Positions 33,919 through 38,200 of a stretch of DNA of 64,000 nucleotides are shown in pieces. Position numbers and translations under genes: made by a program. The notes under the pieces are model-generated. The model did no database searches, was not told where the DNA came from, and worked only from the letters and a program-made list of their open reading frames with translations. Origin of the DNA: Gammaproteobacteria bacterium (GTDB taxonomy: Bacteria; Pseudomonadota; Gammaproteobacteria; Pseudomonadales; Azotimanducaceae); the NCBI GenBank assembly GCA_028821125.1, contig JAPPHD010000074.1, positions 1-64,000 of the forward strand. Direction: 5' to 3'. The number at the start of each line of letters is the position of its first letter. Within the stretch, counting starts at the first letter, position 1.

Positions 33919-34986
33919 TCAAGCGGCTCCGCTCAATACCGTCGGGCGCAGGGCTTCGGCAATCTCCAGCAGCAGGCTTTCCGTCGTACTCCAGTCGATG
34001 CACCCATCGGTAATCGAAACCCCGTAACGCAGATCCTCCAGCCGGTCGGGAATCCGTTGCCGGCCCTCGTGCAGGTGGCTTTCGAGCATGATGCCAACAA
34101 TGGACCGGTTGCCGCGCAGGATCTGCTTGACGATCGACCGGGCAACTGCGGGCTGGGTGGCTGGATTCTTATTGGAGTTGGCGTGGCTGCAGTCGACCAT
34201 GATGACGGGCTTCAGCCCCGCCTTTTCCATCTTGCGCTCGCAGGCGGCGATGCTTCCCGCATCGTAGTTGGGGCCGCCGGCGCCCCCGCGAAGGACGATG
34301 TGCGCGTTCGCGTTCCCCCGGGTTTCGATCACCGCAACCTGGCCTGACGGGTTTATGCCGAGAAATCGATGCGGTTCCGCCACCGAGTGCATGGCGTTCA
34401 CGGCCGCGTCCAGGGAACCGTCGGTGCCGTTCTTGAAACCGACCGCGGAACTCAGGCCGGATGCCATTTCACGGTGGGTCTGCGACTCGGATGTGCGCGC
34501 GCCGATGGCGGACCAGGCGATCAGGTCCTGCAGGTATTGCGGCGTGATGGCGTTGAGCGCCTCCGTGCTGAGCGGCAGGCCGAGTTCGGCCAGGTCGATG
34601 AGCAGTTGGCGGGCGATCGTCAGCCCGTCAGCCACGCGGAAGGTGTCGTTGAGATAGGGGTCGTTGACCAGGCCTTTCCAGCCCACGGTGGAGCGGGGCT
34701 TCTCGAAATACGCCCGCATGACGATCAGCATCGTTTCATCCACCCGGCGCGCCAGGGCGGCGAGGCGTTCGCCGTATTCCAGGGCCGCGGAGGGGTCATG
34801 GATGGAGCAGGGGCCGACGATGGCGAGCAGGCGGCGGTCTTCGCCGCCCAGCACCGCGTTCACCGCTTCCCGCGCCCGCACTACGCTCGCCGCCGCGGCG
34901 CTCGTGACCGGAAGCCGCTCCTTCAGCTTTTCGGGCGTGATGAGTATTTCGTGTCCCGCCACGTTCAGGTTTTCCAGTTCCGTCAT
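33919..34986 (-). CDS. DAHP synthase, class I (AroA-alpha/AroFGH type)
   Basis: First step of the shikimate pathway: phosphoenolpyruvate plus erythrose-4-phosphate to DAHP. The start is set at 34986 (MTELENLNVAGHEIL) behind GGGAGA; the track's extra 12 residues lie in the leader. 355 residues. Landmarks are LAIVGPCSIHDP, MRAYFEKPRSTVGWKGL, GARTSESQTHREMASGLS, the metal/PEP-site MVDCSHANSNK and EGRQ. Paralogue identity (aroF, aroG or aroH) cannot be read from sequence alone. The gene is preceded by an aromatic-rich leader peptide and terminator, listed separately. Confidence 0.95.
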   Translation of the reverse strand: MTELENLNVAGHEILITPEKLKERLPVTSAAAASVVRAREAVNAVLGGEDRRLLAIVGPCSIHDPSAALEYGERLAALARRVDETMLIVMRAYFEKPRSTVGWKGLVNDPYLNDTFRVADGLTIARQLLIDLAELGLPLSTEALNAITPQYLQDLIAWSAIGARTSESQTHREMASGLSSAVGFKNGTDGSLDAAVNAMHSVAEPHRFLGINPSGQVAVIETRGNANAHIVLRGGAGGPNYDAGSIAACERKMEKAGLKPVIMVDCSHANSNKNPATQPAVARSIVKQILRGNRSIVGIMLESHLHEGRQRIPDRLEDLRYGVSITDGCIDWSTTESLLLEIAEALRPTVLSGAA

Positions 34987-35022: not shown

Positions 35023-35054
35023 TAAAAAACCCCGCTCGTCGCCTTGCGGGGTTT
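35023..35054 (-). terminator. Attenuator-like terminator in the DAHP synthase leader
   Basis: On the minus strand AAACCCCGC, loop AAGGCGACGA, GCGGGG and TTTTTTA, 37 bases before the DAHP synthase ATG. Just upstream a separate perfect 9-bp stem (GAAAGGCGG with CCGCCTTTC, positions 35088-35080 and 35068-35060) could act as the pause or competing structure. A terminator between a leader ORF and the gene it precedes points to attenuation. Confidence 0.8.
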
Positions 35055-35106
35055 CCTCCGAAAGGCGGGGAGAGTCCGTCCGCCTTTCCGTCGTCCTGTC
35101 GGGACT

Positions 35107-35181
35107 TCAGGTGCAGCGCCAACTCTCGGCGGCACGGCCGAAGTAACCAAACCAAAAGATCGTTGCACAGTGGTTTCGCAT
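35107..35181 (-). CDS. Aromatic-rich leader peptide of the DAHP synthase gene
   Basis: A 24-codon ORF (ATG 35181, in-frame ATG also at 35193, stop 35107) too short for the ORF track. It contains IFWFGYFGRAAESWRC: three Phe, two Trp and one Tyr in 14 residues, in a genome segment where such runs are rare. It ends 19 bases before the first stem of the leader and about 53 bases before the terminator hairpin. Stalling at Phe/Trp/Tyr codons would signal shortage of the pathway's end products. No strong Shine-Dalgarno is visible before either ATG, which is the main weakness. Confidence 0.7.
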   Translation of the reverse strand: MRNHCATIFWFGYFGRAAESWRCT

Positions 35182-35276
35182 AAGGCCGCGCATGGTACTG
35201 ATGTGCGATGTGACATGCAATGCGGACGGCTTGAAACCACCCATTGGAGTAGCGAGGGCTCCCGGGGCGAACGCGG

Positions 35277-38200
35277 CTACAACTCAATCAGACGTGGAAT
35301 TGAAGTCAGGTACAGGGCCGTGCGCACGGGCTGGTGGTAGAGATCTTCAGCCAACGCGCGGTAGCGGGCAAGCTGTGGTCGATGGCGGGTGACAATCTGG
35401 TCCAGGGAGTCGGCTCCGCTGGATACCGGGCCCGTCTTGTAGTCGATTACCCAGCGTTCGCCATCGTGTTCGAAGGCACGGTCGAACCGGAACGTCCGTA
35501 CGGCGCCGTCGACAATGCCCGAGACGGCGTATTCGGAGACCGCTTCGGAACCGCCTTCCAGTATCCAGCGGCCCGTCTCGTCTTCGAGTACGTTCGTGAT
35601 CTGGCGCGCGGTTTCGGTGCGGCAAAGGTCGATGTCCGGCTCCGAAAGCCCGGCGTCCGCCAGATTTCCGGTCCAGACCGGTGTGCGGGATTCGATCCAG
35701 TCACCGGCACTGGCGGGCAGTGGGGAATCGCCGAGTTCGCAGAGGGCTGCGTGTATGAGGTTGCCGAGAACGACTTCCCGGCGGCCGGCAATCGGGTCCG
35801 GCTTCAGGCGCTCTGCGGGGTCGGCATCGGAGGCGCGTTCGATTTGCGGTTCGAGGCGCAGGGGCTTCCTGGCCGGGGGCTGCCATACGAAGTCGCTGGC
35901 GAGGCGGCGATAGACAGGAGCCGCGGTCGCCGCGTCCGGCCTTGCGGGGCGGCTGCGCGGCGAAGCCTCTACGGGAAGGGAAGCCGCGTGGGGCCAGAGC
36001 AGGTTCAGAAGCGATCGGCTCGCCGGGCGGTCGCCGGGACGCACGGCCGTTAGCGTCAGTGTGCGCCGCGCCCTGGTGCAACCGACGTAGAGGAGCCGCT
36101 GCAGCTCGTGCCGCTCGCGCAGTTTGTCCTCTTCGGCAAGCCAATCGTACAGAGGGCCGGTCTCCCGTGCCGCCATGAGCAGCCGGTTGTCCTGCAGGCG
36201 CCAGCGCAACAGGGGGGCTTCGGTGGGCTTGGTCTGCCGGTCCAGGAAGGGCAGCAGGACGTGATCGAACTCCAGGCCCTTTGCCTTGTGGATGGTCAGG
36301 ATCTGAAGATTGGCGGCAGCGCTTTCCACCGCGAAGAGGTTGTCGGCGCCGAACCGCAGCCGGTCGACGTCCAGGCCGTCGGACCCGAGGTCGTCAACCA
36401 GTTCCAGAAACCGTTCGGCGTGGTCGATGGCCGCTTCGTCACCGTAGGCCGCCGGGCCGCCGCAATGAATCCAGATCGATTCGAGAACGGTTCGGGGCGG
36501 CGATTCGTGCCGGGCGGGCAGCCAGGCTTCCAGTGCTGTCAGCAGGCGGGCGAGACGCCGTCTTCCATCCCGGCTCAGGCGTGAGGAAGCTGCGCGCAGG
36601 GTGGCGATATCCCACGCCGGGAGTTCAGCGAGGGCCTCCAGGTCGCGCAGGCGAAGGCCGACCCAGGGCGAGCGCACCAGGCTGTACCAGGCCAGCCGGT
36701 CGCAGGGGTTGGTGATTGCGGCGGCAAGGGACAGCAGGTCCGTCACCGCCGGCGTGTCCGCCAGGGCATCGATATCGGTGGCCTGCCAGGAAATGCGGTT
36801 TTCGCGCAGTGCATCCAGGATTCCTGTCAGGTGCGTGCGGCTGCGAACCAGTAGCGCGATCCGGGCATCCGGTTCGTCCGAGAGGAGGGTGGAAATACGG
36901 TCGATGATCGCCTGTCTTTCATCCTCTTCGGTCTCGAACAGGCGAACGCTCGCTTCGCCGCCGCTTTCGACACCGGCCTGACAGGGGTTGTAGGGCACTC
37001 TGCCGAGCAGTGGATCGGCTTCCTTGCCCATGACATCGGGGAATGTCGTGTTGAACCAGTCGACAAGCCGGGGCGCGGAGCGGAAATTCATCGCGAGGCG
37101 CAGGGGGCGCAATCGCATCTGGTCGAGCCCCCGGCTCTCCGCCCGGTAGAAAAGGCCCACATCCGCATCCCTGAACCGGTAGATCGACTGCATGGGATCG
37201 CCGACCGCGAAGAGGCTCACCCCGCTTTCTCCGGACCAGCCGCCCACCAGCAGTTCCAGCAACTGGTACTGGACAACCGATGTGTCCTGAAATTCATCCA
37301 CCAGTACGTGCCGGATCCGGTTGTCGATGGACAGGGCCAGTTCCGTGGGGTTCTCGCCGGATCTGAGCGCCCGGCGCGCGGCCAGCAGCAACTCGGTGAA
37401 ATCCGCGACTCCCTGCGAACGCATGACCGACGACAGGTCGATGACCGCCAGCGAAAGGCTGATGCAGATCGAGATGAGGTCCTGCGCCTGCCCCGGCGAC
37501 AGCGGCTCGGGCGGCAACAGGCGCAGGGCCGCAAAGCGACCTTCCAGCCCCAGGGCGCCGACGGTAACGATCAGGTCCATCGCGCGCCGCTTTTCGTCAC
37601 GGGCCTCCGGGGGAAAGCCGTCCCTTCTTGTGAGCTGCCTGCGAAGGCTGCCGCTTCCGGTGGTCACCAGCCGGCCGGCCGCCCGCCAGAACGCCCCGGG
37701 GGCGGACCGGTCGAATCCCGTGGCGAACCCGACAGCCCACTCCAGCTCATCCAGGGGCTCTCGGGGTATCAGGGACTCCAGGTCCTCGGCAACAGCGCCG
37801 GTCAGTGTCTCAAGCCCCCCATTCAGCAAACCGGCAACGGATTGCGGCGCTTTTCTGAACGCCGCGACCACTTCGGTAACCTCGTCCAGCCAATGGTCCC
37901 GGCGGGCGAGCATGCCGGCAAGCAGCCGGCGGGCCTTTTGGGCATCGTTGTCTGTCAACGCGAGGAAACGGGCGATCTCCTCGGCGAGGGGATCGTTTGT
38001 GTACAGGCGGCGAAACAGGCGCCCGGCCGCGAGGGCATGGAGTTCCGAGGCGTTCTCCACCAGGCGCGCCGTCCGGTCGAATCCGCTGGAAACCGGCATT
38101 TGCCGGGTCAGGGACATGGCAAAGCTGTCGATGGTGCGGATATTGAGCCGACTGGGGTTGCCCGCGAGCTGCCATCCCCGCTCGGCATCCCGCGCCCGGG

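Follow-up and report, generated by a model that had tools for sequence, protein, structure and literature searches.

The locus raises the question of whether a short reading frame rich in aromatic codons, followed by a stem and a terminator, controls the DAHP synthase gene that lies behind it, and which amino acids such a control would sense. From this arrangement the initial annotation had predicted attenuation by phenylalanine, tryptophan and tyrosine together. The window, by which we mean the whole 64,000-nt stretch of DNA analysed here, is part of a 5.3-Mb draft genome (G000) whose host belongs to the family Candidatus Azotimanducaceae of the Pseudomonadales; judged by the DAHP synthase, the named record nearest to it is Candidatus Azophilus lithoversatilis, with 73% identity. 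Inspection of the sequence found every predicted element in place, namely a 24-codon ORF with IFWFGYFG, a 9-bp stem, a terminator with a T6 run and then the DAHP synthase gene, all of them on the minus strand (Table 1). Taken together with the comparative and folding analyses presented below, this makes it very probable that the region is a ribosome-mediated attenuator through which charged tRNA-Phe, tRNA-Trp and tRNA-Tyr would jointly control the gene. The start of the DAHP synthase at 34986 is preceded by the SD-like sequence AGGGAGA. An in-frame ATG at 35193 was also considered as the leader start and is unlikely because it overlaps the -10 hexamer.

Table 1. Position of the features of the putative attenuator in the window.
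Feature	Position	Strand	Remarks
-35-like hexamer TTGCAT	35215..35220	-	17-nt spacer; below the threshold of a generic promoter scan in the window
-10-like hexamer TACCAT	35192..35197	-	10 nt 5' of the leader ATG
Leader ORF, 24 codons, MRNHCATIFWFGYFGRAAESWRCT	35107..35181	-	ATG at 35181, TGA at 35109-35107
Control codons IFWFGYFG	35160-35137	-	within the leader ORF
Segment A (GAGAGTTGGCGCT)	35115..35127	-	final codons before the leader stop; partner of B (folding)
Segment B (GAAAGGCGG, extended GGCGGACGGACTCTC)	35070..35088	-	5' arm of the 9-bp stem; supported by folding and, over 58 loci, by covariation with A and with C
Segment C (CCGCCTTTC)	35060..35068	-	3' arm of the 9-bp stem; D is its alternative partner
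Segment D (AAGGCG)	35040..35045	-	within the terminator loop; C:D is the predicted antiterminator, enclosing the 5' arm of the terminator
9-bp stem	35088-35080 with 35068-35060	-	
Intrinsic terminator AAACCCCGC...GCGGGGTTTTTT, T6 run	35024..35054	-	same hairpin type in the family
Class I (AroF-type) DAHP synthase, regulated gene	33919..34986	-	TIGR00034 aroFGH, 486 bits; PF00793

Taken alone, the window is only mildly unusual (fold z -2.2). A generic promoter and terminator scan of the window gave no match, the loop being too long and the promoter too weak for the rules of the scan; an Rfam scan of the window at gathering level returned only tRNAs, and the Rfam families Trp_leader, Phe_leader and His_leader had no gathering-level match in the window, nor one in ten loci searched at E up to 1. 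It is the comparison across the family that proved decisive. The DAHP synthase protein was used to search 101 Azotimanducaceae genomes and the upstream regions were compared, a leader being defined as an ORF with at least five F/W/Y in 12 residues and dinucleotide-preserving shuffles serving as the null. An aromatic ORF of this kind is present at 55 of the 79 orthologous family loci where the shuffles lead one to expect 2.5, a count that speaks decisively against chance as the origin of the attenuation layout. Among 79 orthologs from other families (Pseudomonas, Marinobacter, Halomonas and others; L004-L082) a single one carries an aromatic ORF (0.8 expected), and it was found at none of the ten second DAHP synthase paralogs of Azotimanducaceae. 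Over the last 16 codons, aromatic residues account for a fraction of 0.36 in the leader frame and of 0.11 in the two other frames; since the ORFs were chosen by their aromatic content, the fair test lies in the shuffles and the other-family orthologs and not in these fractions. Leader and terminator occur together at 60 family loci, with a distance from leader stop to CCCC of mostly 36-60 nt and a CCCCG..CGGGG-T(n) hairpin in nearly all of them. The initial annotation had proposed to follow the leader codons across relatives, and the aromatic codons are kept wherever the terminator is kept. About a quarter of the family loci have no detectable leader, some of them being cut by contig ends. Examples of leader endings are WWAGYYFYTD (L089), YWLGYFYFIDK (L147), FFWFGFYYFFEK (L148) and WFSGYWFGFTN (L161). 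The leader stop is TAG in 38 of the 60 family leaders, which is unusual for bacteria; pairing of segment A may hold this codon in place.

These counts also bear on a simpler explanation of the locus, according to which the hairpin and T-run do no more than terminate transcription of the helicase gene upstream, and the leader ORF is a product of chance. The helicase gene does lie on the same (minus) strand and ends at 35277, about 95 nt before the leader ATG, so that a terminator at this site would also end the helicase transcript. Yet the aromatic ORF recurs far above expectation and is tied to the DAHP synthase, a promoter-like element stands between the helicase gene and the leader ORF, and the region holds three covarying alternative helices for which a plain terminator would have no need. 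A helicase terminator next to a chance ORF is thus a most improbable account.

The alternative helices came to light in a MAFFT alignment of 58 loci (A1), which contains four repeated elements: A, located at the leader stop or behind it; B and C, which form a hairpin; and D, a repeat of B, in the terminator loop. In a mispartnering test (58 loci, 2000 shuffles), each element was paired both with its own partner and with partners from other genomes, and the duplex energies were set against each other. Own partners fitted better for A:B (-11.4 vs -8.6, z -9.0), B:C (-14.3 vs -11.0, z -10.1) and C:D (-12.5 vs -9.9, z -9.6), whereas the control pairings B:D, A:C and A:D showed nothing over the same 58 loci (z +1.1, -1.5 and +1.4), which argues against shared ancestry alone as the cause of the signal. 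In the alignment columns, covariation reached 0.222 for C:D against 0.110 in shuffles (0 of 500), with 51 double-changed cells versus 25.7, and 0.295 against 0.227 for B:C (0 of 500). Thus, three successive and mutually exclusive helices, A:B, B:C and C:D, precede the terminator, where at least three had been set as the mark of a relay, and both covariation and folding place an antiterminator and an intrinsic terminator that exclude each other between leader and gene. The initial annotation had likened the layout to the attenuators of trp and phe operons; the attenuator is upheld, but its architecture turns out to be a relay of three exclusive helices and not a simple stem with a terminator. 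The E. coli trp and pheA attenuators sense one amino acid each, use one antiterminator helix and an SD-led leader, and act on terminal-branch targets. They share with the present system the leader peptide with control codons and the opposition of antiterminator and terminator, and differ from it in that a relay, three amino acids and the gene of the first common step are found here. Closer in design is the his operon leader of Salmonella and E. coli, in which a stalled or finishing ribosome selects among the pairings B:C, C:D, D:E and E:F. The two have in common a chain of exclusive helices, in the present case predicted to be set by the ribosome; the amino acids sensed, the gene and the leaderless start proposed here set them apart, and the lack of an Rfam His_leader match speaks against a sequence relation. 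In the same-genus loci L083-L085, D is absent from the terminator loop; read by eye, these loci may use GCCTTCC-ACC-GGAAGGC as antiterminator instead.

The choice among the helices depends, in silico, on the position of the ribosome. When the RNAs of the 58 loci were folded as far as D, covering A lowered the mean number of A:B pairs from 7.5 to 0.4, raised B:C from 0.98 to 4.71 and lowered C:D from 5.35 to 2.38; C:D was higher with A exposed in 40 of the 58 loci and lower in one (p 5e-10). The window behaves in the same manner. Its RNA from 35127, with A present, forms about 5.9 C:D pairs and 0 B:C pairs, and from 35106, with A covered as by a ribosome on the stop codon, 10.3 B:C pairs and 0.4 C:D pairs. 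The full-length window RNA adopts the terminator fold in every case at equilibrium, and the switch would therefore have to operate while the RNA is being made. If a footprint of about 12-15 nt is assumed, a stall with the codon for Phe, Trp or Tyr of IFWFGY in the A site should keep the ribosome clear of the RNA from 35127 onward. In the position of A the window departs from its relatives, where the segment lies at or just after the stop, and by its sequence the host is a slightly divergent member of the group. Two other placements were discarded: an A segment lying solely after the stop codon fails in the window (-6.3 kcal/mol), and one within the Gly-Arg-Ala-Ala codons (-18 kcal/mol duplex) was dropped, being absent from the folded RNA, whereas GAGAGTTGGCGCT forms.

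Sequence comparison thus shows a leader peptide whose aromatic codons cluster a short way ahead of its stop codon, and RNA 3' of it that can form the relay of exclusive helices and the terminator; transcription probably begins at the leader ATG or a few bases from it, so that the mRNA would be leaderless or nearly so. The results fit with the following mechanism. With aromatic amino acids in plentiful supply, the ribosome would reach the stop codon and cover A, leaving B to pair with C and D free, and the terminator would form. Shortage of any of the three would stall the ribosome on the aromatic codons; A would then be exposed and pair with B, C would pair with D in the terminator loop, and the 5' arm of the terminator would be shut inside the antiterminator, allowing RNA polymerase to read into the gene.

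How translation of the leader starts was the weakness that the initial annotation had seen in its own proposal, which offered no clear ribosome binding site. A probably leaderless mRNA, strongly suggested by the promoter spacing and the missing SD, would account for it. In most family members TTGC(A)-N16/17-TANNAT stands 5' of the leader ATG. At 41 of 60 loci there is a -35 of the TTG type with a TANNNT -10, the spacer being 16 nt in most cases and the distance to the ATG 5-10 nt (most often 7 nt); shuffles lead one to expect 1.2 such loci, and other distance ranges yield 0-3. None of 45 leaders is preceded by an SD-like sequence, whereas 29 of 45 DAHP synthase starts are. The window promoter matches the consensus at only 7 of 12 positions, and its spacing of 10 nt leaves a few nucleotides of 5' UTR possible; in the same-genus L083-L085, TACCAT occupies the equivalent place 8 nt 5' of the ATG. 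A transcription start downstream of the ORF, which had been named as fatal to the proposal, is not what the sequence points to, as the promoter-like element lies directly upstream. A leaderless leader mRNA is on record for trpL of S. meliloti, whose transcript starts from the ATG of the leader ORF (PMC7298713), as is probable here; that leader differs in sensing Trp only, in its target trpE(G) and in the trans-acting functions reported for it.

The leader is a short ORF with codons for the end products of the pathway, and the claim that all three aromatic amino acids are read is supported by the joint presence of Trp, Phe and Tyr in 51 of 59 leaders. A narrower reading, in which attenuation effectively senses one or two amino acids (Tyr and Phe, for instance) and the Trp codons are structural or due to chance, is rather unlikely although it deserves weight. 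Tyr occurs in 59 of 59 leaders whereas Phe and Trp occur in 55 each; the nearest solved relatives of the window enzyme are Tyr-sensitive (6agl/6agm, 447 bits, versus 370 bits for Phe-sensitive ones), and the last Trp codon of the window falls inside segment A. The AroR leader of C. glutamicum, with Phe-Tyr-Phe, is reported to respond to Phe limitation (PMC11802643). Trp, however, is a rare residue, and its share of 8% in the last 16 leader positions compares with 2.7% in the other frames; it often heads the aromatic cluster (YWLGYFYF, WWAGYYFY), where a stalled ribosome would leave A exposed. Sensing of all three aromatics is thus the reading retained here.

The distribution of the element was followed with a covariance model (R1) built from A1 and run on 343 Pseudomonadales genomes. 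Most strong matches outside the family lie 5' of DAHP synthase genes that form a second clade (47-53% identity to the enzyme of the window) and have leaders such as FFWWFGYGYFSQ, EYFFGYFSQQLGHR and FYYGYWFSRSRA, and the two clades split in the DAHP synthase tree with support 100/99. The attenuator is seen on clade T1 in Azotimanducaceae and on clade T2 in other Pseudomonadales, the T1 genes of the latter being without it. In 30 loci of clade T2, the terminator loop fits its own upstream arm (-17.8 vs -14.3, sd 0.5, 0 of 2000). Among 321 class-level genomes, no R1 match outside the order stood before a DAHP synthase gene, under strict filters that could miss weak ones; the R1 matches outside the order, lying before neither DAHP synthase nor thrS, were rejected as attenuators and taken as chance terminators. 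The likeness of the model matches favours common ancestry of the T1 and T2 attenuators over convergence.

One of these loci outside the family, L195, is covered over its full length by the Rfam family P15 (RF00627), at 56.8 bits with a cut-off of 70; the window has no P15 match. P15 exceeds the Rfam cut-off in 12 of the 18 genomes searched behind named records, all of them Pseudomonas or close relatives, and a DAHP synthase gene follows each of the 12 matches, a location already given in the public description of P15. Leader peptides such as SFYFGYWFSHWRA are found at 11 of the 12 under a strict terminator pattern, the leader SFYFGYWFSHRRA is visible at the twelfth (L228), and a T-run terminator with C:D complementarity accompanies nearly all. 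Most likely, therefore, P15 represents a terminated leader RNA from an attenuator of the aromatic type; it resembles the family element in its aromatic leader, T-run terminator, C:D complementarity and place before a DAHP synthase gene, and differs in preceding the second paralog. A literature search, thin on subscription papers, found no paper that reads P15 as an attenuator or joins P15 and DAHP, and the main text of the P. aeruginosa 3'-end study PMC8297930 makes no mention of P15. That the Pseudomonas counterpart is catalogued as a small RNA fits with another explanation, in which the terminated leader acts in trans, as described for the likewise leaderless trpL leader of S. meliloti (rnTrpL; PMC7298713), and attenuation is secondary. 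Every helix found here serves cis switching, though, and the leader adjoins the DAHP synthase gene at all loci studied, which leaves a primarily trans-acting role very improbable. The wider proposal built on the cis-acting attenuator is evenly balanced between being right and wrong: a single attenuator family, represented in Rfam only by P15, would use a leaderless peptide and a relay of three steps to sense all three aromatic amino acids, would control entry into the shikimate pathway across the Pseudomonadales and would have moved between DAHP synthase paralogs (T1 in Azotimanducaceae; T2 in Pseudomonas, Marinobacter and others). As a separate observation, a second conserved aromatic ORF (YYRYDWRFSR / YYGWGYGWRFS; DNA motif TGGCGATTTA) lies downstream of the P15 terminator and ahead of the DAHP synthase ATG in Pseudomonas (L220-L231) and in Halomonas and relatives (L211, L215, L232). 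In Halomonas its stop abuts the gene start, and it is possibly a second, translational layer of control.

Other genes of these bacteria show related arrangements. Thr-rich leaders (MQAQAHAFFTATATLTVCEGRLRA; MRILSHTATTNATIVGWAA; ETTTH) precede thrS at three loci (L238, G000:C99:13805-13868; L239, G039; L240, G035). The terminator is of the same design, and at two of these loci a -10 box stands a short distance 5' of the ATG; the leaders are predicted to form a Thr attenuator of threonyl-tRNA synthetase. A survey of trpE and pheA served as a control, and its outcome was graded weak. Trp clusters such as WRW occur in short ORFs before trpE at L245, L249, L251 and L261, which suggests Trp-only attenuators in some relatives; no consistent leader was seen in the pheA upstream regions of relatives, and the genome of the window has no such leader at trpE or pheA.

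Attenuation that senses all three aromatic amino acids at the first shikimate step had been considered notable by the initial annotation. Attenuation of a DAHP synthase gene finds support here, but it has a precedent in aroF of C. glutamicum, where a DAHP synthase is reported to be attenuated through the Phe-Tyr-Phe leader AroR (PMC4046766; Neshat et al. 2014, via PMC11802643). Set side by side by description, the two systems share aromatic leader codons 5' of a DAHP synthase gene and ribosome-mediated attenuation; C. glutamicum is an actinobacterium, and no Trp codons are reported in its leader. What appears to be new is the combination of three aromatic amino acids, a relay backed by covariation, a probable leaderless start, a spread over the Pseudomonadales on two paralogs and the link with P15. 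The proposed attenuator provides a testable mechanism for how a large proteobacterial group may set the flux into aromatic amino acid synthesis, and through it a catalogued Pseudomonas RNA, P15, gains a likely function. It also offers a comparative case of a ribosome that would read three amino acids by way of a relay of RNA helices, with a sensor peptide that is probably leaderless, a design that the same genomes appear to employ again at thrS, for threonine.
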